Source: Capitulum mitella
Lineage: Eukaryota > Arthropoda > Thecostraca > Pollicipedomorpha > Pollicipedidae
Direction: 5' to 3'
Assembly: GCA_030062745.1 (NCBI GenBank)
Contig: CP099846.1
Coordinates: 29,781,201 to 29,845,200, forward strand
Length of the DNA: 64,000 nt
Shown: one piece after another, positions 1-62,315 of the stretch
How positions within the stretch are numbered: position 1 is the stretch's first letter
Layout of the letters: each line of letters starts with the position of its first letter
Made by a program: the position numbers and the translations under genes
Notes under the pieces: generated by a model
Told to the model about the DNA's origin: nothing
Databases searched by the model: none
Seen by the model: only the letters and a program-made list of their open reading frames with translations

Positions 1-1672
1 TCTTAGGGACTTTATTTTCCGTATTTTTCTAGTCGAGTCTAAGCGTCACCAATATGGGTTATCCCCGATACCCAAGATAGTCGAGCTACCCCAGTTTGAG
101 CTTGGGCCCAGCCAATGGCGTTGACCAGAAGCTCTTGTGAAATTAGTGTTTAAGAAAGGACTAAACAGACTGTTGTTTGAACATGCGCAGGCAATATGCC
201 TACAAAGAAAGCCGTTTAGTACCAAAGCTGTTTGTAGTAATTACCTCCCTTTAAACAGATCATGTTCATATGATGGACCATTTAATGTATAACTACAATA
301 AAGTTGGCAAAGAATAAAACGGTTCTGAAAACAGCCGCCATGCAAAATCAAGTGGTACAGTTCAGTAAGAAATTCCCTTTTAGAGGAAAATTAAGCTCAT
401 CAATATGATCTGGGGGCTCCACAATGCATTTTCTCGAAATTACGCTCCCGTATGTTTTATACACATACAACGTATGCCGTCATGGAACAAAAACGCATTT
501 TTTACAACATTGATGCGAATGGTGGGTAGAGCCAGGGATCAGAATCCGTGTTAAGCATAACTTGGAGTTCGGGTTAAGCGAAGCTCGATGCATGGACTTC
601 GACCCCCGCATTCGGTCGAGCAGTGTCAGGCGACGGCTGATTTGGTGGCAGAAATTTAACACAACTCGATAAATCATCACATAATCGAGATAATACTCGG
701 CTGGTGGGATTCCGCTTGGCATCTTGAATGACCTAAATAGGAGGCAAACATTCACAGTTAAATGTTCAAGAATGTGTACCAATTGCGATACTTCAGATTT
801 ACCGGCGTTCGTGTTCGGTGGCCGCGGCCCGCTGTCGACCGGCTAAACCTGGCCAAACGGAGAGCTGGGAGCCTGTCTGTCTCCCGGGGTGGTCAAGAAT
901 TGTCCGAATGTCCTCCAAATGGCGTCCGGATACCGCGGCTGATGGACCTCCGACGGCGACGAAGACCGGAATTCAGGGCAGCGGCCGACCAATAGCTCTG
1001 TTACCAGTTTGAAATGGCACACTGTGCTTGGCGGGGTGTCTGATTCACTGGCGGTCAAACGGTCGGCAACGCAGTTCGCGAGCACATGGCTGTGCTCACC
1101 GTTGTCACGTTTTGATAGGCATCTGACCAGGAACGTAGAAATGCCCCAAATACATCATTCGCATTTCGCCGTTTCCAGTTTCTTAGTTTCCATTTTTTTC
1201 AATTAGACATATTGAATGAAAAATGGAAGCATTTTTCCATTCGACTCCTCTCCGTTATAATAAAACTTTTGAGCGATCGTTTATAACATGGTGTCAAGCG
1301 TCAAAACTTAGTCAAATCTATCTTTAAGCATGAACTCCACAAAACCATGCGCGTAACTTTTTATCAAGATGCTTATCACATATGTTCGTTGTCTATAAGA
1401 TCAGGCCGCGACCAGCTCAGCGACACAAAACGTGTACCTGGACTGCGTAATCCAGAACCCACAGACGGCTCGAACAAAAAAAGCAACAGATCGACAGGAT
1501 GGCGACGCTCATCTGATAATCAACCTGCGCATTTTCCCGTTACGGCCTGTTATGCCGCATCACTTTGAAGCTCATTTTTTTCGTGCATCACCGTAGACTC
1601 AAAGGTCAGTTTCGGGATTACTGATGTTGCGGTACGGGAGTTCCACCACGGCTGCAGCCTGTCGTTGCTCAT
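1..1672. other. Anonymous intergenic DNA with a SINE-like fragment
   Basis: No coding sequence is recognised. A SINE-like fragment lies at about 530-665. A CpG-rich patch at about 805-1000 has overlapping short ORFs in several frames, which is typical of GC-rich non-coding DNA. Confidence 0.4.
530..665 (-). repeat. SINE-like fragment, body only
   Basis: It shares the phrase GGGATC..GA..CC..GCTAAGCA-like, then GCATGGACT.CGA.CCC and a CGGCTG.TTTGGTGGC block, with the copy at 5490-5600. The tRNA-like head is not visible here, so this is a truncated or diverged copy. Confidence 0.4.
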
Positions 1673-2217
1673 CACAGAGTGACCAGTGAGTCCTGCCAGC
1701 CACAGAGTGACCAGTGAGTCCTGCCAGCCACAGAGTGACCAGTGAGTCCTGCCAGCCACAGAGCGACCAGTGCGTCCTGCCAGCCACAGAGAAGCCAGTG
1801 CGTCCTGCCAGCCACAGAGTGACCAGTGCGTCCTGCCAGCCACAGAGTGACCAGTGCGTCCTGCCAGCCACAGAGTGACCAGTGCGCCCCAGCCAAGTGA
1901 CCAGGGCCCCACAGAGCGGCCAGTGCGTCCTGCCAGCCACAGAGTGACCAGTGCGTCCTGCCAGCCACAGAGTGACCAGTGAGTCCTGCCAGCCACAGAG
2001 TGACCAGTGCGTCCTGCCAGCCACAGAGTGACCAGTGAGTCCTGCCAGCCACAGAGTGACCAGTGAGTCCTGCCGGCCACAGAGTGACCAGTGAGTCCTG
2101 CCAGCCACAGAGTGACCAGTGCGTCCTGCCAGCCACAGAGTGACCAGTGAGTCCTGCCAGCCACAGAGTGGCCAGTGAGTCCTGCCGGCCACAGAGTGAC
2201 CAGTGCGTCCTGCTAAT
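1673..2217. repeat. 28-bp minisatellite, about 19 units
   Basis: Units begin CACAGAGTGACCAGTG and recur every 28 bp, from 1673 to 1869 (8 units) and from 1910 to 2190 (11 units). One 41-bp rearranged unit lies between the two blocks. Units differ mainly at a GAGTCC/GCGTCC site and at A/G in CCAGC/CCGGC. Since 28 is not divisible by 3 and no frame has a stop on the minus strand, all three minus frames stay open, giving spurious Leu/Gly/Trp-rich ORFs of up to 254 codons. Confidence 0.95.
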
Positions 2218-3000
2218 CTGACGAGCGGCCGGCGGGGACGTCCGGCTTCAGCAGGCTGCCCAGCGCGCGGTCCGGTCTGGAGCCGGAGGGCCGGGCCGGG
2301 CCGGGCCGGCCGGCGGCACGCGTGGGTCGGTTCCGGCGCCGTACTTCGTCCCGCTGTCATCACCCCCGCGGGAATGACAGCCCTCAGGCAACGCCGAACC
2401 GACCGGGGCCGGTGACGTCACCAATGCAGCCGCCCACCGGCGCGCCCGGCAGGAAATGAGCCCCGGCGATCGAGCGCCGCATACTGAGCGAGTCGCCGAG
2501 CCTCGCGGCTCGCCGGTGACACTGCACTCTGTTCGGCGTGTATGCGCGGGCCGGCACTCTGTGGCGGTCGAGTCGAAGATCGGCTGTTCGTCGGCCGGGG
2601 GCGGCTCTATTCCACCGTCGTGCTCCAGCGGCGGCGCGGCGCAGTTTCGGGCGCCGGCCAGATGAGGCGCCCGGTTCGGGAGATGATCGTAATGGCGGGC
2701 TGAGAGGGTGAGATGGGGTTTCGCCGGTGAACGTCCGCCGGCGCTGGCGCGTGATTATGATTGGTGGTGCTGCCAGAGGCCCGGCGGCCGCGCCGTGCGA
2801 ACTGTTCGATTCGTGAGTCGGGCCGTGGACGATAAACGACTCGCGACGGCTTGGTTATGCGGTATCGATAGGTGCGATCAAACCGTGCGCTTCTGCGTCG
2901 GCTGCAGGAGAGAAAGACGTGTCGTCTGAACTCGAACCGGGGTCACGCAGTCCGAATAGTTCGGCACTTCAGCAGTTCGAAAGCTCCGCCCCCGACTCGC
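2218..3000. promoter_or_regulatory. CpG-island-like block of unknown role
   Basis: Sharply elevated G+C and CpG directly follows the minisatellite, with GGGCCGGGCCGGGCC-type runs at about 2290. It ends near 3000, where AT-rich sequence begins. It could be a promoter with a first exon, but no TATA box, clear donor or conserved peptide is seen. Confidence 0.3.
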
Positions 3001-4012
3001 GGTGACTAATTGGAAAAGCTACTCAGTGATGTGTGACATATTGTCGTCTAAGTTCGCTTTATTACAGAAAGAAAGGAAATTCATTGCTCACTTCACAGAG
3101 TTAAAGATAAGTCGTTGTTTCTTTCTCTGTGTAGTATTTCGGATTCCCGAAGAGACATCAGTTTCATACTGTCGCGTGGCAATACACTAAGCCCATCTTT
3201 TTCATTTCAGCTTTATTCTCTCATATCATTTAGCCAGGGACAACTTTAAAGGGGGAGGAGGGAATTTCCCCTTCAAAACTGTCCTTCCGCACTTCAGATT
3301 TTCTGGAAAGAGGAAAGGGAAACTGGGGATTTCACTCTTCAGATATTTTCCGAAACTCAATTTACGCTTCTTTGCCAGCCTGGTCGTCCGTGAAGCCTCT
3401 CGTCGCCGGCCGGGGTCACGTTGAGGCGGTGGCGGGGTGGGAGGTCGGTTCAGAAACCTGAGCCGCCCGGAATCCACGTTCGCGTTCATGCGAACGTGGA
3501 TTTTCAGCCATGAATACCAATTCTACAACGACGCTAAACCTTTTGTTGACGCAGACGCTGAACACCCTACTGTTCGTACGCATCAATGGCCCAAATGTAG
3601 AGGCATTCGATGCCATAAAATATGCCCGACATTGGGTTGAACTGGGCCGCAGATATGCGAAGGACAAGTGCAGGTGCGCCAAACAGAAACGCGTAGAAAG
3701 CATGGCTTCGCAGCTTTTCTGCTGACTGCCTGGATGGTCAGTACGTCGGCTCGAGGGGGACCATGCGTGGAGCTCTGCACCGGGCGTAAAAAATCCGGAG
3801 ACATGTTGTTGCCTAGAACTGCTAAGTGTTAACAAAATGTTTGCTGATGCAGGAATAAACACTTATGGTTGTTGTAGAGCTTGAGTTTTATTTTTCGTTT
3901 ACCTGATGATGTGTAGTTGAATAAGATGTGGGTAGGTCATTGTGTGAAATTTTGCACTATGACTGAAGCCATTTTTAAAGGCCTGATCACAGGCTGTATG
4001 AAGTCTGATCCC
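3001..4012. other. Anonymous DNA with one perfect hairpin
   Basis: No gene is recognised. Contains the palindrome at 3471-3502. The ORFs here overlap on both strands without similarity to known families. Confidence 0.35.
3471..3502. repeat. Perfect 13-bp inverted repeat, 6-nt loop
   Basis: The left arm AATCCACGTTCGC (3471-3483) and right arm GCGAACGTGGATT (3490-3502) are exact complements separated by GTTCAT. Function unknown. It may be the end of a foldback element. Confidence 0.85.
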
Positions 4013-5231
4013 TTAACCCTATTCCCGGCAGGGGGGGCTAAATCCGCCCCCCTTGGGTTTTTGCTTGCCAATTCCAGGATTTTTAACACAGCTTCACGAA
4101 ACTTGGTGACTTTTCCTAGCTATTTTTTCTATGTGCCGTGACAAAATTTCAAAATTCTGTTTTGCTCAATGGCGGAGCCATGCAACGTTTTTGGGAGGAA
4201 CCTCAGGCCATTTTTGGCCATGTTGAAGGTAAAAGGAAAATGTCTGCCAAAAACAGAGTTTTTAAGATAGAACTTAAAACTTTATATGGATGTATAGCTA
4301 AATAGTTGGGCAATGTGTAGATGTAATTTTGTTTATCTGGGGTTATCTTACAAGGTCAGGTCAAGGTCAAAAGTCAAAATTTGTTTTTTCGCAATAATTT
4401 CGGCGCCGTTTTTTCAAATGCCAAACCCGGAATGCATATGACGTACAAGGGAGCCTTCTACTTGTGTACCAAGTTTCAGTTTGATATTACGTCGAGTCAC
4501 GGAGCTATGACCTAAAATGTTAGTGCGCGTAACCTATATCGCAATAGCCATAAAATGAAGTTTTCGAAACAAAGTGAATTCAAATTATTGAAAACGCTTA
4601 CAGGTAATATTAAATGCACACAAGATCATTCCAGGTGACCCCAAGGTCACTGGAGGTCATTTAAGGGTCAAAGGTCACAAGTTGATCTGAGAAACGTGTG
4701 ACCATGACAGTTCCCCCTTTTTCATGTCCCTGGCACCGCCTATGCTATCATTATACAAACATTGTAACACGATTTGTACTTCTTTAGTATGACATGACTA
4801 GCAGAAGCCAAAAAAGGGTGTTTGCCTCTTTTGTTCATTCAGTTGTTAGAAAACTAATCCTCCTATTTTTGAAACCCTGTGAACGCCCATGAATTTTCTC
4901 AAAATTTCAGATTTGTGGACCCATGGTAAAGCCCTATCCATAATCTCTCGATTCATGCCAGTTTCATCGAAATCGGTCCATAAACAACAGAGTTATAAGA
5001 AGTCCAAAAGTACCCTCCATTTTGACATTTTTGTCCCCCTGTATGCACAAATTTCAAAATTTTGAAAATTTCCTTTTATAAAAATGTAGTTTACGTCACG
5101 GCAAATCGATTGCCGTTTGTTGCGATGAAATCGGATGAGTAGTTCTCGAGATCTCGGGGGGGGGGGGCTGAACCCGCCCCCCGCCTGCCGGGAATCGACT
5201 ATACCGTCTAGCCCTCCGGGAATAGGGTTAA
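4013..5231. mobile_element. piggyBac-like non-autonomous element (MITE), 1.2 kb, copy 1
   Basis: The element is 4017-5227, flanked by TTAA at 4013-4016 and 5228-5231. The termini are perfect inverted repeats for 12 bases (CCCTATTCCCGG), followed on each side by long G/C runs able to pair. TTAA duplication with CCC ends is diagnostic of the piggyBac superfamily. No transposase ORF exists, so it needs a partner. The interior has many AGGTCA half-sites, including a DR1 at 4665-4677 and a cluster at 4353-4375. Confidence 0.75.
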
Positions 5232-17915: not shown

Positions 17916-20639
17916 GATATTAAACTGAATATGTTCGTGGGGCGATAAAAACTGTGCGCAGACATCAGTGCACATGCCACTAAACAACAGCCGCCTCCTA
18001 CTATCTTTGCATTTTTATCAACGTTTAGATGCGTTGATGCGGAGGCGTATGGACCGGGTCCATGACCCCCTTTTTTCTGAAGCTGAATATTAGATCTGCG
18101 GGAAAAATCCTTCTTAACTTCTTTTGAATTCTAAGTACACTACCATGTGTTTGGCCTTTCCATTTCCTTGATTTGTCTGTACGCATTCTTGGAGGTATGT
18201 AAATTTTGCTTGCACTAATAATGTTAACGTTAATATTAATGTTAATAGTAGCAGTAGTAGTAGTAGTAGTCGTAGGAGGAGGAGGAGGAGGAGCAACTGT
18301 TACTGCAGCAGCAACAGCAGTAACAGTACCAACAGCAGGAGTATTGTTGTTGTTGTCGCATTATTGTTGTTCCCTAATTTTCTATGTTGTCAGTTTCCTA
18401 ATCCTGTATTACATAAATAATCATGTCGATCTTTCACCAGTTATCCTTATTTTTTTATAATAGACCTCATTTTTTGGTTGCATTTCCGTAAAGGCAACGG
18501 AAACCATTCCATATCCCTACCAGCGGCTATCACTGACCTGAAAGCCATTTGCAGACTTCAAGTTGGCGAAATAATCGGTGTGTTCGTCTACATTTGGACT
18601 ACATTTCCCCGCGCATCAGTTCGGAGCCGTCTCGTCAGGAAACCGACTGGTGCCTGGACTCGGTGGTCGGACCCTTTGGTCTGAGACCCGCTGTGATGGC
18701 GGACGCGTCGGCCCGAGGCCGATCCGCCCGGCCGCCCAGCGCCATACCGCCAGCGGTGAATTCTGATGCCTCGGATCCGATGGGCACCGATGGAAATTGC
18801 TCATTGATATTCGGGTCGGCGTTTGCGCCTGTTCGCTGTTTTACCAGCGACATCACGACCCAGCCAGAATGTTGCATTTTCTGGCATACAGTGGGAGGTG
18901 TCGTGACTTTTCCGTCGATGCGAATACCCATGCATCCCGCCATGGGTGGAAATCATCTGGAGATGGGTTTCCATTCCCGCCAGATGCATATGAAACGAGG
19001 CACGGGCCTGCGCGTAGCTGAGGGCGTCATCTGGCTTGCGATCCACATTCTCGTTCCGTCCGTGCAATGAATAGTTCTTTCGCAACGCCGGCATATGCTG
19101 ATGCCAGCGATTTCAAAACGCATCATATTCAGGTTTGGCTTCAGTTCAGAAGTGATATCCCCCTTAAAAAGCCAGACAAGTTCCGATACGAGTTACAACA
19201 GCTGGCCGATACATGAACCGAAAAGTGCTCCACACCCGACAGTTACTGGAGACGTCGGTCGGGGCTATCGTCGCCATTTCCCGGCCCTTGGACTTCGCAC
19301 CGCCGAGCACTGCATATACCAGGGCTACTTAATCCTGAACTGTAACCCAGATACTGTGGCAGCAATAACGCAGTTACCACGGGTGGCGTCACCGTGGTAT
19401 ACGAAGGTCACCAGCGCCCCAGTCATTTGATTGTGGGGTGTTGCCTACACCCAGGACCCCACATTAATCGTTACTGGCAAGGTGGAATATTACGGTGAAG
19501 CATACGAGTGGTTGTTAGATTCTTAGGATGAGAAGAAAATTTGTTTCTTCTTTACATATGGAAGCATTTCGAAAGCTTAGCCATTTTAACGGAACAGGCT
19601 GGTACGTTACAATTATCAGCCGACTTTAATAATGACACTGGAATCGGTGCACATTGTAGCGAAATTTTATGACGTCATTTTGCCGGTGAAATTTAACTTG
19701 GGATATACTGTGACAAAGTTCGCTTTCATGACTGAGATCCATGAAATCTAGCTGTTGCTCGGAGGAAGCGGCAAATTCCAAAATTCGCGAGAACATGTAA
19801 TGGAGAGCTAAACTGACAGTTTGTTTTCTGGGTAAAACGGTAGTGGAGAGCTAAGAATGCGGTTTGTTATCTTGTGTAAAACGCAAAATATTTGATAGGG
19901 TGATCATCAATCTTACCATTACTTCGGCCAGATAAGCGGCAAGTTCTTTTATTGCAGAGATAAAGTCGTAAAATGAAGTGGTCCAAATCCGAGGAGAAAT
20001 CCAGTTCTGAGGAAGGGGGGGGGGGTTCTTTCAAAAACTTATCATCTGGGCCGCACCCCTGGAAGTATCCCACAGTGAAAAATTGGTACACCGCCGCTGG
20101 GGATTACCTAAACGTTTAGATGTCTTGACTTGGTACATCCGGAACAACGACAGCCAGGCATCGTGCTCAGGCATTGCTGAAAGTCTGAGACCATGGGCGT
20201 GGTTTTTGGAAAATGATTGTAGGTGCTTGAAACGTTTATAGGGACATCCAGACATAGCGCATCGGGAGAGAGTGGGCTTGTGACAGGCGTTTAGGTGTAA
20301 AGTTCAGAGAAATGAATTTAAAGATGTATTACGGAATGTAAATTACAGGAGAATATGTTACGTAAATCATGGGTTGCTTTATGACAGCGACATCCTTAAA
20401 GGGAATATATCTATTTTTCCGGTATCTCAAAAAAACACTCTGGGGAATATTTAAGATTTGTTATGAAGTATTATGTCAATGAAAAATGCATTTCGGTTAT
20501 CTTAGAACAATATTTCGCGCATTTAAGCTATTTTAGTTATCGACAGTGCTATCGGTACCCGAAATGCAAGAACACAATACTAGAGGAAGGAACCCATCAG
20601 CGGGCGGAAAATCGTAGGTAAACCTTAGACCATGCTTAC
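17916..20639. other. Anonymous DNA with trinucleotide-repeat cluster
   Basis: A cluster of (GTA)n, (GGA)n, (CAG)n-like and (TTG)n tracts lies at 18245-18358. A CpG-rich patch spans 18590-18800, with an open frame to 19070 (173 codons) that I do not recognise. A G run near 20017 belongs to a dispersed-repeat margin. Confidence 0.35.
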
Positions 20640-20761
20640 TAGAGCTGAGGATGCGTATGGATTTTGGATTCGAACACCCGTATGGGTACATTCGATTACT
20701 CTGATCAAATATTCGAGTCCTTTGAAGTTAGCCTCATTTCGTCCCAAAAGGTACGATCGGA

Positions 20762-21110
20762 ACAATAAGTAAGAATCAGACCGATTCACAATGGCGTTAA
20801 CAAATTTACAAGCTAACTTTAAAACAGCGGCCAGCGCCGGGCACCGGGCGGACGGTTGCCGGGCTCTGCAGGGGCGTGGGAGATGCATGACGTCAATGAC
20901 ATGTCATGACGCCATGACATGTCGCTGACATCATGCATGTCCCACGCCCCTGCAGCGCCCGGCAACCGTTATCACGACAGTGTCGCTGACACTGCCGTTA
21001 TGTCAGTGTCATGACATCATGATATGTCGCTGACGTCATGTCAGTGCCATGACGTCAGTGGCATGACACTGACATGACAGTGTTACGTCAGTCTGATTCT
21101 TACTTATTGC
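20762..21110. mobile_element. Foldback element with 19-bp TIRs and 116-bp palindrome
   Basis: Perfect inverted ends, CAATAAGTAAGAATCAGAC (about 20762-20780) and its complement (about 21091-21109), enclose a 58-bp-arm palindrome at 20853-20968 with only six mismatches, and a further inverted repeat (TGTCAGTGTCATG at 21001-21013 with 21062-21074). TGACGTCA and CATGACA words recur throughout. No coding capacity. It looks like a MITE or foldback insertion inside the hAT element. Confidence 0.7.
20853..20968. repeat. Near-perfect 116-bp palindrome
   Basis: The left arm begins CGGTTGCCGGGC, and the right arm ends with its complement GCCCGGCAACCG. By hand pairing I find six mismatches in 58 pairs and no spacer. 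Confidence 0.9.
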
Positions 21111-21131
21111 TAGAATCAATACGTAATTCCT

Positions 21132-21360
21132 GACCTGATATCATGATATAATATGATATATCATGATATCAGGTCTATGTTATCATGACATATCATAAAC
21201 CTGATATATCATGATTATGATATATCATGTATGATATATATGATATATATGTATCATATATAGTGATATAGTGATATATAGTGATATATAGTGACAAGAT
21301 ATATGATATATATGAATAGGTTTCGTATATCCTGATATATCATAACCAGAATATATGAAA
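21132..21360. repeat. ATATCATGATAT palindromic array
   Basis: A perfect 18-bp inverted repeat (21132-21149 with 21158-21175; arms GACCTGATATCATGATAT) is followed by a run of TGATATATCA-like units, themselves self-complementary, to about 21360. Composition switches abruptly from the GC-containing palindromes on either side. Confidence 0.85.
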
Positions 21361-21387
21361 CGATTCCTGATTCATATATCGGTTCCG

Positions 21388-21460
21388 CGTATACCGATAG
21401 GCGGGCATGCCTATCGGCATACGCCCTCTGATAGGCATGCCCGCCTGCCTATCAGAGGGC
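21388..21460. repeat. Two adjacent GC-rich hairpins with alternative pairing
   Basis: Hairpin 1 pairs CGTATACCGATAGG (21388-21401) with 21410-21423, one mismatch. Hairpin 2 pairs GCCCTCTGATAGGC (21423-21436) perfectly with 21447-21460. In addition, 21399-21415 is a perfect complement of 21430-21446, giving a mutually exclusive long stem. Confidence 0.88.
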
Positions 21461-22012
21461 GCTCTGATAGGCAGTTAGAGGAGCAGACCGTCAAGCCGGT
21501 ACGATGGTGGTGCTTCGGACCGGTCATATTGGAATGAAGGACTGAAATGAAATCAGTTAGACCGTGGTAGGTGGCAAGGGTTCATCCCGGCCATGCATCT
21601 GACAGGAATCGTTCTTCCTGCTCCCCGTCACCTCAGGCATAGGCAGTATAAGGACAGGAACTAGATAGTTTGGAATTCTGTATTCCCTGTAGCCAGTGTA
21701 ATAAGTCATTCGCAGCATCGATGTCAGAATGCGATTTTTGTGAGACGTCTAGGCGCACGGTCCATTGTTCTGTTTGAAGGCAACAAGTAAACATATTCAA
21801 AATCATCCTAGATGTAGCAAATAACCAAATCTTCGTCAAGAATATTCCAAAATCCGTTGCTAACTCTTGCATTGTGAGAGCCAGTTGTGATGCTGCAGGT
21901 CCAGTTTCGATTTCGGGCCGCTGAGGTGCTGTGGCTCGATTGAGGCGTAACAAACAGCACAAGGAGAACGATGATGTATTAACATATTACTTGGCTAGAC
22001 TCACACAGTACC

Positions 22013-23890
22013 CTACACTTTGTCGGGAAGGAAGAGGATCGTACTGAATCGGTCTTTTCCCGGGATCAGCCAACGGCTGTTGAGTACCAAGCCAGCCCGC
22101 GAAAACACGTACTCTGCAGGCGTGCTGCAAGCTAGAGCCGCCAAGATTTCTTTGCCAGCGTCGCCAGCGTTCCAAAGCTGGGCTGATTTGTCTTCCACCA
22201 CTGCATGGGAGATGCGTCTTTCCGAAACTTTTCTTGCTGGAACTTAAATATTTCCGTTTCAAGTGACCCACTGCCATCGCCCTCTGAAGTAAAGGAAAGA
22301 TTCCATCACAAGACGCCTCCTTTTCACTGTCTTTTCCGCAGATTGCGTGCCTGCAACTACCGTGACGGCTGCGGTGGAAGATGTCCTCTCAGTTTCATTC
22401 TTTAGACTCTCGAACACCCGTTCTTTTTCTTCTCTTTTTAGTGCATGTGACCCTGAAGTATCTTTGGTCCAACATGGTTGCTCTGGCCAGAATATCTCTG
22501 TTTAGATTCGGAGCAGTGTGGCGCCTGAAGTCGTCCAACATGGCGCTGTTGATGACCACTATGTAGTTAGGATCATCTTCTTTCACTTCCATGTGCTTTT
22601 CAAGCTGTTTGACCATTGGCAGGACAACTGATGCAGTTTAATGCTTCTCTCCTCCCAGCAGGGCCGTGGACTTCTCGAATGGTTCTAGAAAAGTTCTGAA
22701 AAGTTTGTCAATTTGTTCGGCTTCTTTTTCGCTAGTCACCTGTGACGGCTCTCCAAACTCACACAAGCAGTTGTTAACGCATTGCACGCTCATATTCACG
22801 TTCACGTTCACGTTCGTGCCTTGGATCGTCCAGGTCACTTGCTTTGTCTGCAGAGACCTGCTCAATTTTGTCGGTTCTAATTATGGATTTAACCAATGTA
22901 GGGTTACTGTCCCACCGCGTTAGTACTTCTTTTTCATTCCTTTTTCCATGTTTAGGGCTACGTTTTTTGGCTGCTTTCCATCCCATACTCCATTTTATGG
23001 CCTTTTGCGACTTCCCAGCCATTTTTCATCTTATCAATCATGATGCATATAGGCAGGTCTCAGTTTTAGTCCATGACTGACCGCTGACTGAATCAGGCGA
23101 GCCATGCATCCGTTCATCTCTGGACTCGGGTACGCTGCTTCCATTTTGTTCTCGTTGCCCGTCACGTAAGCAAACACTATGTCCTTCACTTTGAATTCGT
23201 CTTTCACTTTTCTTGTCCCAGCCTTATAGTTTTCTGCTGTATGTGATTCTCTCATTTCTTTCACGCCGAGACTTGAGGACTTGAGCTCCCAGTCCTCGCC
23301 AACGTAGTGAACATTAATATTCATGAAGCTTGCAGCGCTGCTGTTGCACCATCAGTCAGTTCTTGCCTGCCATCGTCTCAACATTTTTCAGGTCAGTCTT
23401 CAGGAACTCAGCCTCTGTTTCATGCAGCTCGTCAATGTAGCTGGCTACCGTTATGCGATGAGAAATTTCGTACCCGGGACAAACAAATGAACAAAAATAA
23501 CGGAAGCCGTCGTCCTCAACAACGTATATGGGCCGGCTGTTTCGACGGATCCACCTCGCGATTGCGCCAGTAGCACCATTGCATTTCCCAGAATTTCTTT
23601 CCCATTTCTTTGGATGGTTTTTGCCGGATGCCGAGTGTTGCGACAAAAAACCTGGGAGCTTGGTTTGTTTCTGCTTTTCTTTACGCATATGCTTTAGCTC
23701 TGGACATTTTATTACCTGATAAGCCAAGTTCGTTGTTTGTCCCTAGCTGAGCACCTCTTCATATATTTTGCATGTCACTTTCGTTCTGTATACAACGCCT
23801 AATTCAGGAACAACAAAACCGACATGCTCCCAAACCCAACTCCTGCCGGTGTTTTTGGAAAGGCCAGCATATGTTGTTTCTTTTTCCATT
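22013..23890 (-). pseudogene. hAT-family transposase pseudogene with BED finger
   Basis: On the minus strand, successive fragments in several frames follow the ZBED-like transposase order. A BED-finger remnant at about 23870-23700 (WEHVGF, then VTCKIYEE, then GQTTNLAYQ) has lost part of its zinc ligands. The region with WIRRNSRPIYVVEDDGF (within 23356-23727) follows. Next is HYVGEDWELKSS with ESHTAEN (23034-23324), then LDQRYF (22395-22616). The C-terminal hAT dimerisation motif STPAEYVFSRAG is at 22013-22201. Frameshifts and stops between the pieces show it cannot make an active enzyme. Confidence 0.8.
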
Positions 23891-25793
23891 TCGCAAAAAT
23901 CAAAGCGCCAAATTAATCTTCCGGGATCTCTGAAAAAACGGGAGCAGATTTTATGTTGTCATGGTTATCATGGAGCCATCGTGAAGACATATGTTTAATG
24001 CACTCCAAGACAAGAAATACCTACGAACAGCACCTACTTCCTATGTTGCAGAGACCGGAGAAAAGAGCGCGTGTATGCGGAACGCTCCCGGAGTCTTAGG
24101 TGGAAACGGTCAGTTAGCAACAGTATTTAGATCGCACGTAAAACTTAAGCCACAGAAATGTACCGTTGATTCGGAATAGCGTAATGGGGCCTAAGGATTA
24201 GAATTCCGAGTCCGTGCAACCAGCTTTTAGTGTTGCACGGGTTTTGCAGCTGCAGTTAGCTCGAATCTGATTGGAAAGCGCCCTGGCAGAACATTTTGAT
24301 TAAATTTATAAAAAAATAGCCACCGGAAATGGATGCACTCACAGTCACCGTTCGGATTGCTAACCGTGCTAATCAGTCTCAGGCTGAGTACATAGACAGT
24401 GATAAAAACCGAGTGCTACTGAAGATGGAGTGGTATCTGTCCTTCATTTTCCGTTGACACGATTTCGCTGTCGCGGCTTATTTTGTGCTATATGTGCGTC
24501 GTGTAAATTGCAATACATTTTTTCGTGCAGGAAATCAGCATAGGTGCTCAGATCCATTGTGCGCTAAGTCTCTTTTAGTGCTTGCAAGTCAGGCAGGTTT
24601 CCCCATATTAGTCTCAACGGGTTTTTCTATTGGCCGTTTCCTATAGCACACGTTGTAAATGAGCTGACATTCACTCTCCCGTACCTTCAAGCTCCACTCA
24701 CTGACTGATCCCGACTAGGCGCTCTGCCAGTCGTGGCCAGAGTCAGGCACACCACGAGTGTCAGATTACTTGCAGGGCGACGCGTCACCCGCCCCCTCCC
24801 TCCCCCCAACGTGAGGCGCAGAACTGAGCCGTAGTGGGGAGGGGCGGAGCATATCTCATTGTCACTGCCGCGCTTTGTTCTAAGTCATAAAGAAGCCATA
24901 AACACGCTAGCAATGATCTAGTTAGTATTCCGCTTGGCGATGTTTAATTTGTCCCACATTTTTCTTCAGATTTAGCTTCGAAATGCAAAAAAAGTATTCA
25001 AATTCTCGGCTGACTCTCGAATATTTGGCGAGTGTTTGGGTGAAAAGACGGCCAACCGAATATTTGCTGAATATTCGATCCCTGAAATCAACATTCGAAC
25101 ATCAACCGAATCCGAATATTCGGCCGAATTTTCAAATCATCCAAATCCGAATCAACAGCTCTAAATTTCCCACTCAACAATCCGTCTTGCTGTACCAGAC
25201 ACAGTTATAAACGGCAGCGACGATTGTTTCCACAAACAGCACTGTCGTATTTCGATCTTTCCATGTAATGTGTACCTGCGGGGGAAATTCGTCGAACTGC
25301 GGCGGTACTTGCCTGCGCCCATAATGGCCACTTTCATAATTTCAGAGTTCGTCAACTGCGGTCAGCTTCGACATCGCTGAGGCTAACGATACGCTAACAC
25401 GTTTTATCAGTGGTCATCGTGTTAAAAAGAAAATGGGGTAAATAGATTGAACTTTGGCTGGTAGCCAGCGTACTTATCCCTGTAAAATATGAGTAAACGA
25501 GAGAGAGTTGGCAAAAATGAATTGTACCTAGGTCTTGATTCATGAAAATGTCTTTTCAATCGTACGTGAACAGTTAAAAATCGCAATTTAAGTACATATA
25601 CTCCCTTTAATGGAAGACCTCGCTCCAGGATCCAGCTTGACCGAATTTTGCTTGGAAGATGGTGGGAAAAAGCAACTGGTGAGTGACAGTGCAGTAAATG
25701 AGCTCCGATTATTGCTGATAAAGTTGATTTTAGGTGGTTAACGTGATGGACCTTAGAGTACAACTATATTCCAATATTTAAACACACTAAGTT

Positions 25794-25979
25794 ATGGGCG
25801 TCCAAGTCATATTGGTTTTAGCCATTTGCGGCCACTTCTTAAGTGTGGCAAATGCACAAATAGAGTGTAATATGATAACTGCACACACTCCTGCTTGTGG
25901 AATGTTCAATGTCAGGTGGCGGAAAATCGGAAATTTTAAAAACAGAAACAGTGAATTCACAGGAAAAAATTTCGCCTGA
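25794..25979 (+). CDS. Possible first exon of a secreted protein (hypothetical)
   Basis: A 61-codon ORF opens with a textbook signal peptide: a short N-region, the hydrophobic core VQVILVLAICGHFLSV, and a likely cleavage after ANA. The mature start would be QIECNMITAHTPACG, with spaced cysteines. A possible donor (CAG/GTGGCG at about 25913-25918) suggests the reading continues in another exon, which I cannot identify. TATATT and TATTTAAA-like words lie just upstream. It lies outside recognised transposons. I do not recognise the family, and it may be chance. Confidence 0.3.
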   Translation: MGVQVILVLAICGHFLSVANAQIECNMITAHTPACGMFNVRWRKIGNFKNRNSEFTGKNFA

Positions 25980-27598
25980 GACCTGCAATCCTCATGAGCA
26001 ACGCGGCAAAAAGGACCCTTGCCAATCCCAAAAAAGTCATACTGTGGGCGTGAGTCTAACCGCGGCGAAGAAATGAGGGTGTCCGAAATTACCTACCGTC
26101 CGATATTACCCATATCTCCCCTACATTATGGCACTCAATGTTTCAGCCAGTGGAACACTGCCAGTTTCAAAGACAATGTTACCCAGTTACCCATTACCCA
26201 AAACGCAAAGCTCCATTACCCAAAACACCACCGCATCAAAGGACATGCCTATCATACCTGCATTTTTATTTTTCTCGACAAGTGGGTGGTGCTGCAATGC
26301 ATTCTTTCTCGGAAGTGGCGCCTGTTTCTTCTTTAGTAACGAAGCCTTAACTGAGCTGGAACTATACGAAGAGTTTTCTGCGTAGGTATGAGGTGGGATT
26401 GTTCGAGACGTATTCGTGCTGAAGACTTTCAAATGTTTTTGGGAGTGCGAGCTCCCATAAAGTCGGTATCCATAGCCGGTTCGTCCGTTCACATCTTGGT
26501 AAAATTTTGTCTGATATGTGGAAGTCCATTGTAGCGCATTGTCCCGTTTACCCTATTCCGTGCTGGGGGGGGGGGGGGCGAATTTGCTCCCTCCGGTTTT
26601 TCGCTCGTCATTACCGGGGTTTTGGGAGCTGCTTCACAAAAGTTGTGGAATTTCCCTTGATATGTTTTTGAGATTCTGTGACAACATTTCAAAAGTCCGT
26701 CTGCTCTAGACGCGGTTCCAGGGCATGTTTATGCGAAGCATGTTTGAGGAATATCGGGCTTTCTGGAGATTGCGTACTTCGCCGCCGTCATGTACTATTC
26801 TGATGTCCTTTCTTATATCACGGAGAGTTCAAATAATCGAAATATTCGTAACCTGCACACTTCCAAGTATTTTTTAAGAAAAACGATCATCAATGTTGGA
26901 TCTAGGAGCATGTAAACTATGGCAGATCGTCATAAACATACCGTCGGTCTCCGGCGACGACCCGTGCTGATAACTGCATCTGCCAAGAACAGTCAAAACT
27001 TGGCAGAAAGGAAGAGGAAAATTTCGAACAGCCGGAAACTGAATGCCTTCCATGATTTTGACAGACAGAATGTTTGGCCGCCTCACCATCAGGCTCATGT
27101 CCTAGTATAATCTTCATCATTTGAGATATTTAGATGTTACACGTTGTCCCACTCTAAATTCTGTAACGCGAAAGTTGGCAATGCTATACGAGCACATGTA
27201 CCATGCACGTCCCTGACACGATGATATAAGGTATTGTATCGTGACGTTTTGTCATTCGGTAATTGACCGTTTCGATGTTAACAGAGGTCCATATTTTTCA
27301 GGTTCCATATCTCGCGTGGGCTATTTGCTCATCCAATATTTTGCCCCCCAATAATGTTTTCATTTCGTTCATTATCGCTATTTAATATTGATTCAAATCC
27401 AATGCTTTGTCCTTCGATGTTTTTCAAGTTTGCTGTTCATCTCTGCCGACATTTATCCTGATCGATATTTTGCCTCCGAAATTTTGTTTTCAATACCTTT
27501 TCCTTCAATATTCCGTCATACGGCATTCTGTAGGGTCACCGTGCTGTTCTTAGTTTATTGACCCCTAATTACGAAAGAAGACAATCGCTGGCTAAAAA
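25980..27598. other. Anonymous DNA with a truncated TTAA-element end
   Basis: Apart from the fragment at about 26547-26710, no gene is recognised. Short ORFs overlap in three frames at 26019-26385 without family similarity. Confidence 0.35.
26547..26710. mobile_element. Truncated end of piggyBac-like element, family 1
   Basis: TTTA followed by CCCTATTCCGTGCTGGGGGG resembles the left terminus of the element at 4017. Downstream wording (GCTTCACAAAAGTTG, GACAACATTTCAAAA) tracks 4090-4160. The right part of the element is missing. Confidence 0.6.
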
Positions 27599-28828
27599 TT
27601 AACCCGCCCCCGACTGGGGGAGGCGGTTGACCGCCCCCCTGAGGTTTTTCTGGGATTGCGAGAGAACGAACAAACACAGCGCCACGAAACGTGTACGTTT
27701 TGCTTCATCATTTTTACATCTTGTGTCAAAGTTTCGACTTCAGGCCAAGTCAGATGTCTGACCTAGGTCAGGTCAAACGGACCTATGTCCAAAAAAGTTT
27801 AGCGACCTCTAACGTTTTTGGAAAACAAGATATCACACAATACTTTCAGGGATTAGTCATCTTGATAGATGCAACAAATCTGCTATCTCAAATTTTTTGG
27901 AATTTTCGGGGCCATTGACCTAAGGTCAAGGCCATTTTTAAGACATGTCGTTTTTCGGAAATTGGCGAAGTTTTTCAAAACATTTTTAGTGTGGAGTAAA
28001 GCAGACATCTAGTTACCATCAATGGGGAAAGTATCAATGATTTCCAGCCATTGACCTGAGGTCAGGTCACAAATAACTGTTGCGAGCCAAAATGTACCAC
28101 CGTCAAAATCTGCGATGAATTACTCAGAATGGGTAGAAAATGGCAGAACTGGCTTGCACAGACGCAAGTAATACCATGAACATCAAAAAAGTTTTAAAAC
28201 TGCATGTTTTAGAAATAAACAGGCTCTCGCGGCGGAGCTTTATTAGAAATAAAGCTCCGCCAATTCTGTAGATTGGTAACTAATGAATGCATCCAAAATT
28301 TAAGCATGGGCAACCATCACAGGAACCACTAAGATCAATAAAATTTACATGGACAGGCTTATGTCGCGAAAATAAAGGAACGCTAAAATTTGTTCCCGTT
28401 AATCTCTTACTGCGTACGGTTGTGGCGCCCGCCGACAACCGGCGTGAAAATTGCCGTGTCTTCAACTTAATGTTTCGGCGTATATATTTAACAAATCCGG
28501 GAAATTAGGCGTTTATCGGCATCTGTGGACCTCTGATTGTGCTTGCATGCCTTTACCTTTGTGTTATTAGTCACAGCCCTGGAGATTCAGGCCGTTTCTC
28601 GGTCTCATGCAGTCGGCTATGAGAAAACATATATAGAACATAAATTGCTTACATATTATCTAAAACAAAAAATGATACCAGTTTCGAGCTCTACTTGTCA
28701 CGAGCTTTCCAACGGTGTGCTAATTTTTATCGTGCGACCAACCGTTCGTGAGTTAGAGGGGGGAGCGGTCAACCGCCCACCCCCAGTCGGGCGTGATCGT
28801 CGCCTACCCACCGTCGTGCGCGGGTTAA
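27599..28828. mobile_element. piggyBac-like non-autonomous element, family 2, copy 1
   Basis: The element 27603-28824 is flanked by TTAA (27599-27602 and 28825-28828). The left end is CCCGCCCCCGACTGGGGG, which contains a perfect CCCCC-GACT-GGGGG hairpin. The right end repeats CCCGACTGGGGG in inverted orientation about 30 bases inside. No transposase ORF. The interior has everted TGACCTnAGGTCA sites at 27916-27928 and 28052-28064, plus TGACCTAGGTCA at 27759-27770. Confidence 0.72.
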
Positions 28829-36982: not shown

Positions 36983-38134
36983 TTAACCCGCATACGACTG
37001 TCGGTCGGCGCCATGCACGCTCGACTGGGGGCATTTGACTGTCCCCTCTAACTCAAGTACGGTTAGTCGCACGACAAAAATAAGCACACAGTTAGGAAGC
37101 TCGTGATGAGTAGAGCTCGAAACTGACCTCATTTTTAGTTTGGGATAATATGTACGCCATTTATGCCCTATATATGTTTTCTCACAGCCGCCTGCATGAG
37201 ATCGAGACACGGCCTCGATCTCAAGGGCCGTGACTTATAAAGTCTAGATAAAGGTACCAGCGGACAGGTAAAAGTTCGCAGATGCCGATAAACGTCTAAT
37301 TTCTCCGATTTGTGTAATATACACGAGAAAACGTCGAGTTAAAGGCACAGTGATGTTCGCAACGCTGCACCGTGGGCTCCGCCGACGAAGGTGGTATGAA
37401 ATTAACGGGAAGCAATTTTAGCGTTCTTTTATTTTCACGATCTATGCCCAACTTATGAAAAAATCCAGTTATTATCAATCTACACAAGTGGCGGATCTTT
37501 ATTCGCGAGTGCCTGTTTATTTCCAGAATTTGCAGTTTTTGAGGTTTTTTTTTAACTTCTTGATATTATTCCCAGCTGCGCGAGCCAGTTCTGCCATCTT
37601 CTACCCGATCTGAGTCATTCATCGCCGATTTCGATGGCAGTGCATTTTAACACTTATTCGTAACCTGACCTCAGGCTAGTGGTCGGAGGTCATTGGAACT
37701 ACGCCCATTGAGGGCGAATGGATGTGTGGAAATCCCGACACTCATATTGTTATAAAAAATTCATTAATTTTCGAAAAAACGACATATGTTGAAAACGGGC
37801 TCGACCTTAACTCAATGACCCGGGCATTTTCGAAAAATCCGAGATAACAGATTTTTTGCATTTATAAAATTTCTTACCCTTGAAAGTTTTATTGTGATAC
37901 CTTGTTTTGTGAAAAAAAGTTATAGGGGCTAAACTTTTATGGACATAAATCCACTTGGCCTGATCTAGGCCAGACACCTTGCTCGACCTGAGGTCAGGAA
38001 TTCAGTACAAAGTGTAAAAATGATCAAGCAAAGGCACACAAAGTTTCGTGGCGCTGCGGTTGTTCGTTCTTTCGCAATTTCGGAAGAATTTCAGGGGAGG
38101 CGGTCAACCCCACCCCCAGTCGGGGGCGGGTTAA
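36983..38134. mobile_element. piggyBac-like non-autonomous element, family 2, copy 2 (inverted)
   Basis: The element 36987-38130 is flanked by TTAA at 36983-36986 and 38131-38134. It is the reverse orientation of the element at 27603: its right end, read inward, gives CCCGCCCCCGACTGGGGG exactly, and internal blocks (GTTCTTTTATTTTCACGA against TCGCGAAAATAAAGGAACG) match. An everted GACCTGAGGTCA lies at 37985-37996. No ORF of note. Confidence 0.72.
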
Positions 38135-39617
38135 TTACGATCCTTAAACCCCTGATTTTGTGCATTGGCTCACCCAGGGAGGGAGGGGCCCGGCTCAGGG
38201 TAAACGTATCCCCCTTCACCAAGACTCCCCTGATTTTGGCCACTAGTTTGGTGTGATCGATTTTTCTCGCAAAAAAATAGAAAGTTACGTACCGTCTTGA
38301 GCATGGTATCAGTTACATTGTTCTGAAAATATGGCTGCCTCACATGTAAGAAACGGCAAACTTATGTCCGTTTATGAAAAATCACAAACATACCTCATCA
38401 AATGACACCCGCTTGAAGCCCATTAAACCCTTAATAAATGGGATTTTGACCACTATTTTCCGATCTCCTTCTTTCTTCTTTCTTTTTCGGCAAGAAACAA
38501 GAACAAAAGACATATGCTAAAACTGTTAAGAGAGAGGGCCGCTACATTCTGGCTCTTGCCTTGGGTGCGCCTTTGACTGAGAAATTCAGCATTTCTTCCG
38601 GCCTCTCTCGTCGGCAGCTCGCCAGCTCACCACAGATGGGCGAGCCGATCAGTTTACGCTGGTTACCGCCGCGCGGGGAGAGAGACAAGAGAGAAAACTG
38701 TCTCGATAACAACTGAGCGGTGGAGACGGACCGCGATAAGTCCGCCCGCCATTTAAAGTCTTGGAGTAGGACATCCGCTCACCGCGGCTCCCAGCTAGAC
38801 CCATGTCCAGAGTGCAGTGCAAAACTAGCGGTGCCAGATGGTACGGCGTCAGTCGACGACGGGTCACCACCGTCCCAAGAACGGTATCCCAGCAGCTGTG
38901 GCCGCCCATTTATCAGGCAGAAGCCCGTTCGTTGTGTGTGTCAACTGAGACCAAATTTACCGTCCCTGCTACCGGCACTAAGATCACCAGTCATTAGGAC
39001 TAAGATAACCATCACCAATACGAACGGTGGAAAGTTGCGAGATGAACCACTTTGGTAAGGAAATCACGGCGGAAAAGGGTCCAGTCAGTTCGTCCCTTGC
39101 AAAACCATGGAAGCAACTTCGAATATGCTATTAATCATGACAATGAAAATTAATGCAAACAACTCAAAAAGACATTGTCTGCTTTAACTTTCCTTGAAAA
39201 AAATGGGCATACACTAGCAGAGGTAAAAACATAAAACAGATTTAGCCCATTAGCAGCCCAAATGCAAACTGGTGTCCGTCACGATTGACCTCTCTTTTTA
39301 CATTTTTCTGCTCTGACACACGGTACCTTGCACTTCGCAGGCTCACGAGTAACCATTGTCCTGCCCCGAGAACCAAGTGTGCATGACCTCGTATTCTCGA
39401 CTGTGAGTTGAAGGAAAACATTTTCCCCCTCCTCAGGCTTCGAAATCTTATGCCCAAATAGATGCTGTGGCAGAAATAGATGTTCTCGCGATTCCGTGTG
39501 ACATTAGTCGCGACTTATTGCCTTTCAGAGCGGCAATGAAATGCTAACAACGCTCATTCGGAAATCGCAAACACAGTGCTGCACAGGGATGGCCCGAAGT
39601 ACAGAACTGTTTCAATC
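38135..39617. other. Anonymous DNA with CpG-rich patch
   Basis: A G-rich repeat margin at 38150-38230 (CACCCAGGGAGGGAGGGG) is followed by unrecognised sequence. A CpG-rich patch at 38720-38960 is open in several frames without known motifs. Confidence 0.35.
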
Positions 39618-60826: not shown

Positions 60827-61424
60827 TTGGCAGTGTCCCAGTATATGTGTGAGTTGATGCATTGACAGACAGAGATGGAGAGTATAGACCTGGGGGATGG
60901 GACGTCTTGATCTTTCCATCGTTCAGTGATATGAATCTTAGACGGATAGCAATAACTAGAAAGACACATTCTGAAATTTTGTGCATACCCTGGAAATATT
61001 TGTTGGAAATCCTCAGCCCTGTTGGCAGATGTCACTACACATTGTGTGTAGGGGTTATTGTCATTCTGTTTCTTTTGAAATATGTGGGTCAGTTCAGTAG
61101 TCTGAGTAATAAATTACATGAAGGTGTGGAATTAGGACATTGACCACGGCGAAGGCATGACCCTAATGGTGCGATGCTGTTGTTGATTCCACAGAATGTG
61201 CCAGCTTTGAAGAGAATTTCAGTTCAAAGTATTCATAAATACAAAGCTTGCGTGCAGGCAAATTCTGTATTTCCATTTGAGGAAATGGCAATGCAAGCTA
61301 AAGATGTTTGGGATTAGGCATCAGCATTGGGATGAAGCATAATGTCGTATTCCAAGTGTCAGCTGTGAAGCCGCACTGTGGGTGGTCACGATTGGCGCTG
61401 ACGGAGCGCGCTGCGCGGTTGCAG

Positions 61425-61547
61425 CCGGCCGCTCCGGAACAGACCGAACACCTCAGCAACTGCCTGAAGGTGTTCATCCAGCGCGACTACTCGGAGGGCA
61501 CGGCCGTCCGCTTCCAGACCAGCCTGCCGCCCGAGCTGGAGGGACGG
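61425..61547 (+). CDS. GOLGA7: GOLGA7 coding exon 2 (residues 8-48)
   Basis: This exon encodes a short linker and then the family motif [18 protein letters not shown], followed by LPPELEGR. In human GOLGA7 the matching segment is [12 protein letters not shown]. The acceptor is GGTTGCAG and the donor is GTGAGG. The exon is GC-rich, while the intron upstream is CpG-poor. Confidence 0.88.
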
Positions 61548-61729
61548 GTGAGGCGCTGGCCCCTCCGCGGCCGCCGCTCCTGATGGGCAGGAGCGTTGGT
61601 TGGATTATCCGCACGTGCTGCCGATTGCCTTATGCCACGCGTTGCCCCGGATCAGGACAGTCGCGAGCCTCGCAGCTCCCTTGCCTCGTGAGGACGCGGA
61701 CCATCATCACTGACTGCCGCTGTCCGCAG

Positions 61730-61882
61730 ATTGAGCCGGGCGTTTTTGACAACACTCTGAGCACCATCAACGAGATCTTCGCAGAGGCGGAGGAGCTCAA
61801 CTGCGCGACCTACTGCGAGGGCTGCTTGGCCTGCCTCACGGCCTACTGCATCTACACCTGCATGGACCCGCACTACGACAAG
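61730..61882 (+). CDS. GOLGA7: GOLGA7 coding exon 3 (residues 49-99)
   Basis: The exon contains the helical core and the motif CEGCLACLTAYCIYTC at about residues 77-92. The two cysteines of GCLAC correspond to the palmitoylated Cys69/Cys72 of human GOLGA7. It ends with HYDK at a GTGAGA donor. Extra cysteines (TYCEG, AYCIYTC) make this copy unusually cysteine-rich. Confidence 0.92.
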
Positions 61883-62315
61883 GTGAGATGATCCGCTAGG
61901 TGCAGTGGTGGGGTTTCCGGGTGAGGATGTGTCAGATCTGCGGTGCGGGCGGGACTCGGTCGTTGTGTGGGGATTGCTTGGGACGTGGTGACGTGGCTCG
62001 ATGTGGAAGAGCGAACTGTGGGGGGGGGGGGGCTCCTCAGTGATGAGCATTGTCAGTGGTCATGGAATTGAGCAAGTGAATTATGTGCTGCAAGTGGATG
62101 GCATAGCAAGAACTTGCTGATCTAGCTTGGAATAACGTAGGCTTGGGCAGACGTTTTCTTGACAACCTACTGTGAGGCAGTAGGTGGCTTTCCTGCCAAA
62201 GGCGGAACTGTGGTATCTTAACCCTAGTGACGGCGTGGGTTGTGATGTTAAAGCGTTTCAGTTTAGTTTTTGGCGTCGTGCGCGGGGCGTGCTGACCGGC
62301 CCTCACCGCCGCCAG

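Follow-up and report, generated by a model that had tools for sequence, protein, structure and literature searches.

The 64,000-nucleotide stretch analysed here (the window; G000:C8:29781201-29845200) contains a dense series of inverted repeats at 20762-21460, where the original prediction had described a cascade of nested palindromes. The series interrupts a copy of a dispersed repeat. Elsewhere in the window we observed a 28-bp minisatellite of ~19 copies (1673-2213), crossed by three long minus-strand open frames, and an exon of a GOLGA7/Erf4 gene (61343-61891, E 1.1e-9), which is the sole Pfam match among the eight frames scanned there and marks the sequence as animal DNA. A different dispersed repeat occurs twice, in opposite orientations and at 71% identity, at 27597-28828 and 36983-38136; a further copy of that repeat abuts the cascade's host transposon at a different locus (L007). 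The features of the cascade and its host, in window coordinates, are as follows.

20396-25800, no strand: host copy of the dispersed repeat, split by the insertion; its counterpart is the paralogous locus L083 (C5:19205400-19210600); TIR-like ends TAGAGCTG near 20640 and ~25167, placed by eye
20763-20784, plus strand: outer part of the left flank, from which the second copy was made; the left "TIR" of the original prediction
20852-20901, plus strand: part of the left flank from which the first long fold-back was copied; 45/50 positions match the reverse complement of 20920-20969
20902-20919, plus strand: small hairpin at the turn, TGTCATG-ACGC-CATGACA, 7/7 pairs
20920-20969, minus strand: inverted copy of the left flank 20852-20901, holding 5 of the 6 rare states shared between flank and insert
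20970-21087, no strand: second-round stems built of the same TGAC/GTCA words (20990-21019/21031-21060 and 21035-21051/21062-21078)
21088-21109, minus strand: inverted copy of 20763-20784; the right "TIR" of the original prediction
21110-21131, no strand: stretch without an inverted partner
21132-21356, no strand: overlapping AT-rich stem-loops (21132-21150/21157-21175, 21152-21168/21181-21197, 21166-21183/21190-21207 and 21184-21206/21207-21229, plus longer-range pairs)
21357-21386, no strand: stretch not covered by stems, which may be the joint of a left-grown and a right-grown part
21387-21452, no strand: right staircase of four overlapping stems starting from the right flank (13/13, 16/16, 17/17 and 15/16 pairs)
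21453-21474, plus strand: right flank of the insertion, with a native mini-hairpin CAGAG-GGCG-CTCTG and ATAGGCAG, the template of step 1; found in paralogues without the insertion

The individual structures named in the original prediction are present, several with corrected limits. The pair reported as 19-bp TIRs (20763-20781/21091-21109) is exact over 19 nt and matches at 21/22 positions over 22 nt. What had been described as a 116-bp palindrome with six mismatches consists of two 57-nt arms (20852-20908/20913-20969) with five mismatches and a 4-nt loop. The reported 13-bp inverted repeat is probably the exact 14-nt pair 21000-21013/21062-21075, itself a portion of bigger stems at 20990-21060 and 21035-21078. 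The arms of the AT hairpin (21132-21150/21157-21175) are exact over 19 nt rather than 18. Both GC hairpins (21387-21402/21409-21424 and 21422-21437/21446-21461) and the alternative stem (21399-21415/21430-21446) were recovered, together with a fourth GC stem (21445-21457/21462-21474) absent from the earlier description.

These palindromes are real features of the sequence. Inverted-repeat arms cover 0.743 (74%) of 20852-21474. In 208 control stretches of the same length, taken from the window and overlapping one another, this coverage has a median of 0 and never exceeds 0.196. Folding of the single strand 20762-21480, a check that the original prediction had proposed, gave -217.8 kcal/mol against -89.4 (s.d. 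5.1) for 20 dinucleotide shuffles (z -25). Seven inverted repeats with arms of at least 18 nt, at least 85% identity and loops of at most 20 nt were found in the 64-kb window; four are low-complexity and the other three all fall in the cascade. When only perfect even palindromes of at least 10 bp were counted, no block rose above its own shuffle maximum, and the signal resides in long imperfect stems. Stem coverage of the right block (21386-21474) was 0.99, with a maximum of 0.38 in 100 shuffles. The AT block (21110-21385) reached 0.61, where 100 shuffles gave at most 0.41; since a plain (TA)n microsatellite of the window likewise exceeds its own shuffles (0.48 versus 0.38), this coverage is weak evidence. 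Single hairpins are not rare under laxer limits (arms of at least 15 nt, loops of at most 30 nt): 15 were counted in 146,774 nt from other loci. In total, 210,774 nt were scanned, made up of the window and fetched loci; this sample is biased to the window's repeat, and no genome-wide rate is claimed.

The insertion can be delimited by comparison with paralogues. Positions 206-709 of L083 align with window 20396-20895 (78.3% identity) and positions 714-5028 with 21453-25800 (77.9%), so that L083 runs continuously across the site (709 to 714 versus 20895 to 21453) and the window copy carries a net insertion of 553 nt. The inserted block itself is 20902-21452, ~551 nt, and lies between bases that are nearly adjacent in the paralogues. 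Searches were run against the 477-Mb genome (16 contigs). With 20762-21460 as the query (best 40 of 138 candidates), the first ~140 bases matched many places and the AT part several, and besides the locus itself no match extended across the stretch between them. The loci behind the first set of matches pass directly from ...GACGTCA(GCG/ATG)GCA to GAGGGCGCTCTGATAGGCAG..., two words that stand 551 nt apart in the window. A search with the right flank scored 31 of 31 candidates and a search with the junction the best 40 of 348, and the family list is near complete for the right-flank search only.

Forty-one distinct copies, the window included, were compared by eye at the junction. Thirty-seven have no insert there. 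The window has 551 nt, a copy on another locus (L042) has a hairpin insert within ~20 nt of the junction, and two more copies, L006 and L019, carry short ones, roughly 10-20 nt long. Further to the left, inserts are found in four of the 37 (L037, L039, L040 and L043); that of L037 is a direct duplication, and no inverted flank copy was seen in the other three. The flank matches of the L006 insert are ~7 nt by eye, too short for us to accept it as a fold-back. The host is an old dispersed repeat, probably a hAT/ZBED transposon. L083 yields a zf-BED match at E 0.016, below the cut-off, and no Pfam transposase match was obtained in the pieces scanned. The sequence TAGAGCTG was seen by eye at both ends of the repeat, without matching 8-bp flanks, and L083 homology extends beyond both of these ends.

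Much of the insert can be read as inverted copies of its own flanks. On the left, 20920-20969 is the reverse complement of 20852-20901 (45/50) and 21088-21109 that of 20763-20784 (21/22), with match scores of 40 and 21 against shuffle maxima of 17 and 15 (200 shuffles each). The supposed TIR pair is therefore a piece of flank and its templated copy. On the right, the four GC stems form a staircase that begins with the 21445-21457/21462-21474 pair and continues through those starting at 21422, 21399 and 21387, each template overlapping the preceding product. The native right flank already contains the 5-bp mini-hairpin, and step 1 adds the 8 nt expected from a snap-back primed there. Set against the right flank by itself, the right block reaches a score of just 13, whether in inverted orientation (equalled by 1/200 shuffles) or in direct orientation (0/200), and the case for it therefore depends on how its stems chain. 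The middle shows chaining too, among the left-hand TGAC/GTCA stems and among the AT stems. The AT block showed no match above shuffles to either flank. Its look-alikes at eight other loci (L009-L016) are (TA)n-type arrays, the flanks of which look unrelated by eye. Two further AT-rich arrangements were noted at such loci: an array between long inverted flanks (CTGATCGAACTGGTCCCACGACTGCTCTAAAA and its complement) that forms a large fold-back unit (L013 650-1250; C5, about 12719850-12720450), and a regular chain of AT palindromes in which TTGATATATCATATATATATGATA is repeated (L014, about 880-1010; C15:9883690 region). Searched on their own, as had been suggested, blocks 20970-21092 and 21380-21455 each matched only their own locus in the genome, in a search that skips simple and very common words. 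The earlier suggestion of templated growth is thus upheld, by reverse-complement copies of the flank on the left and a flank-anchored chain of stems on the right.

Flank and copy were compared at 72 copied sites with 41 distinct relatives, drawn from 68 hits; coverage at the sites listed ranges from 4 to 39 relatives and is only 4 at positions 20896-20897. Six of the 72 sites show the same unusual state in flank and copy, one that occurs in just 1 to 6 of 31 to 39 relatives. As these family-rare states are common to flank and insert, the template was most likely this very repeat copy, and the sequence comparison thus points to copying in situ. Flank and copy differ at 6/72 sites: the flank changed later at three, the copy at two, and one is ambiguous. 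At 20782, for example, the copy 21088-21109 retains the family state that the flank itself has lost. The copying thus took place long ago, with ~8% divergence accumulated since; these ages are relative only, with no clock attached. The recent origin that had been proposed is not borne out for the left part, where changes have fallen on both template and copy. The arms may not all be of one age. All left arms taken together have 18/160 mismatches as compared to 1/81 for the right arms and first AT stem (p 0.005), whereas the stricter comparison of flank-anchored left arms alone with right arms gives 6/79 against 1/62 (p 0.13). With that p value, a single event is neither proved nor excluded.

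We consider it likely that the cascade is the scar of mutagenic DNA repair in an old transposon copy, in which iterated snap-back synthesis at both ends of a break, of a Pol-theta-like kind, was followed by end joining. This would begin with a break, or a broken fork, where the native sequence is self-complementary (TGACGTCA...CAGAG-GGCG-CTCTG), exposing 3' ends. Each 3' end would fold back, prime itself and copy ~8 to 50 nt of its own strand; once released, it would refold on the newly made sequence and copy again, repeatedly. The two ends would thereby approach each other, the left one growing to the right and the right one to the left, and finally be joined, perhaps near 21357-21386; for each staircase, the direction of growth is deduced from its anchoring flank. 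The AT-rich middle probably arose from the same stepwise refolding, starting from some seed sequence. The analysis shows the empty site, the copies of the left flank, the fact that these were made in situ, and the stem chain. The break itself, the succession of steps, the place where the ends met, the polymerase and how many episodes there were are inferred.

The best candidate for a polymerase that would extend stems of few pairs is Pol theta, acting with end joining. The genome has a POLQ gene on contig C2, the helical domain of which matches solved Pol theta (E 2.9e-30), and DNA_pol_A exons lie on the same strand no more than 21 kb away. Another helical domain of the POLQ type was seen at G000:C5:23457354-23457578, on a contig without DNA_pol_A hits. 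Its short exon gave no match when compared with solved structures, and HELQ is a candidate identity only.

Several other origins were weighed against iterated snap-back repair. Insertion into the repeat of a mobile hairpin or foldback element of MITE type, bearing 19-bp TIRs, would account for the inverted repeat 20763-20781/21091-21109 and the long stems, and the AT-rich palindromic middle does resemble arrays elsewhere. The left "TIR", however, lies within the host repeat, which in L083 homology reaches back to 20396, and both it and the palindrome arm carry rare states of this particular repeat copy. No second copy was found among the best 40 of 138 candidates for the whole query, and blocks 20970-21092 and 21380-21455 matched only themselves. 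By eye, the limits of the insert share only a 2-bp CA, with no long target duplication, and its ends at 20902 and 21452 are not inverted repeats of each other; in the same family, a likely real insertion of ~200 bp (L032) has an 8-bp overlap at its ends. Given the paralogue without the insert, the shared rare states and the failure to find a second copy in these searches, we rejected the mobile element, which we regard as very improbable, and with it the earlier hint of a TIR or foldback element. The accompanying remark that no named element has this layout agrees with our results, as no known element of such layout was found. An assembly or long-read fold-back artefact is scarcely credible. 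Such artefacts of long reads have been described (PMC12870357). An artefact would be near-identical in its arms, but template and copy here differ at 6/72 sites in both directions; an artefact is unlikely because the arms have diverged, and they are moreover short, nested and chained, with a similar event at a second locus (L024). Just as hard to credit is a functional structured element under selection, such as an origin or a regulatory or non-coding RNA hairpin array. The fold is very stable (z -25), but nothing in the window scored at or above the gathering threshold of any Rfam family, and the block is found only here, in a decayed transposon, with diverged stems. No tRNA was found.

Two other origins are closer competitors. 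Template switching during replication (by FoSTeS/MMBIR, or through a fork stalled at the native palindrome), using Pol delta or another polymerase and requiring no two-ended break, gives the same signature of inverted copies, and the native site is self-complementary; yeast fold-back synthesis requires Pol delta (PMC11724301). We nonetheless hold this origin to be unlikely, though well short of negligible: stems are anchored in both flanks, each beside its own flank, which fits two 3' ends better than one travelling fork. A two-ended break and template switching are not cleanly separable from the sequence. Somewhat easier to entertain, if still on the lesser side, is a series of episodes in which each fold-back raised fragility and seeded the next, so that the palindrome grew over time. 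The seemingly unequal ages of the arms (18/160 versus 1/81) speak for it, as does the hairpin insert that another copy of the same transposon, L042, carries near the same place. The stricter mismatch comparison is not significant, however, and low-fidelity synthesis or later homogenisation of the arms could yield the same contrast.

A second, smaller fold-back insert is seen at L024, in another repeat family. By sequence comparison, ~50 nt at this locus are absent from 5/5 fetched relatives (L087-L091). Over 21 nt the insert matches the inverted sequence of the flank to its right, with a score of 21 where 500 shuffles gave at most 13. The same insert also holds a nested GACGCCCTAGGGCGTC palindrome.

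Other candidates were examined with less firm outcomes. At L042 (1415-1503; C5, minus strand, near 2131088-2131173), a hairpin with 35-nt arms at 97% identity adjoins the same junction of the same transposon, with a net gain of 70 nt. Only the outer 9 to 14 nt of its arm resemble the native flank. When the insert is compared with its own inverted flank, between 5 and 305 of 500 shuffles score as high, according to where the boundary is placed (176/200 with the BLAST boundary), and L042 is therefore a suggestive rather than a firm second fold-back. A palindrome at L047 was rejected, its stem being largely present in a relative (L036), and the ~200-bp insert of L032, with the 8-bp overlap at its ends, is probably an ordinary transposon insertion. 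Two further loci drew attention. L045 2801-2920 (C10, around 11045979-11046058) contains nested palindromes ACCAGTACACTGGT and ACCACTGCAGTGGT within GAGATCACGT...ACGTGATCTC and is possibly a fold-back cascade; among the best 40 of 190 candidates no relative without the palindrome was found, and only L045 itself matched across the stem. At L071 954-1060 (C1, left of 31330953), a ~36-nt palindromic unit is repeated in both orientations next to the same transposon.

The components of iterated snap-back repair have precedents. Purified human Pol theta extends stem-loops from two terminal pairs (PMC11292364), and in vitro it has made a 138-nt product by alternating random and snap-back synthesis (PMC4912351). 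Templated insertions are generally <25 bp (PMC12426944). In these accounts, Pol theta snap-back and theta-mediated end joining share with the present locus the inverted copies of flanks, the short loops, the use of each new end as the next template, the unexplained bases between segments and a native short inverted microhomology at the right junction (PMC11292364, PMC4912351, PMC12426944). The scale is different, with 551 nt and ~ten or more stems here, as compared to generally <25 bp in cells and 138 nt in vitro. The insert has also been fixed in the genome long enough to diverge, and the enzyme here is a candidate. Inserts of theta-mediated end joining are usually under 25-30 bp, and because 551 nt exceeds this usual size, we class the insert as working like theta-mediated end joining rather than as a proven member of that class.

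Fold-back inserts at induced breaks in yeast range from 2 to ~150 bp, the majority under 14 bp, and likewise invert one flank, are primed by inverted microhomology beside the break and have the second end attached through end joining (PMC11724301); the local yeast events described there copy one side, whereas here both sides anchor chained stems. Template switches in great apes (fragment median 12 nt, maximum 128 nt) resemble the cascade in being germline events with local inverted templating, recognised against event-free sequence, but are modelled as one switch and return per event (PMC7954356). FEN1-linked small inverted triplications are also local inverted duplications of hundreds of bases that can form hairpins; their DUP/IN/DUP units average 148/160/148 bp, and the abstract describes no chain of short stems (PMC13334657). 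The foldback elements Galileo and Tm1 similarly place long inverted repeats in an animal genome, but they are multi-copy and mobile (PMC4168063, PMC3169594), whereas the insertion here occupies a single locus and is made largely of its own flanks. No germline-fixed cascade of this length was described in the titles and abstract openings surveyed on related subjects, which is no proof of absence.

The process proposed is thus already known, and what is unusual is its length, the number of steps and its preservation in a germline. The fingerprints of Pol theta are templated insertions, usually too short to be read beyond one or two steps. Here, ~ten or more overlapping stems, a paralogue with an empty site and a copy whose age can be set against that of its template make the order of steps, their length and the size of the loops readable in a germline. 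The locus suggests a route from ordinary transposon sequence to nested palindromes without a mobile hairpin element, and indicates that such palindromes can persist while diverging ~8%. More speculatively, this germline may run unusually persistent snap-back repair, its broken ends refolding and recopying many times before they are joined and its palindromes growing stepwise at self-complementary sites over several episodes, a generalisation we presently find doubtful. Were it true, the longest legible trace of it would be the one in the window, with a smaller trace at L024 and possibly a third at L042.
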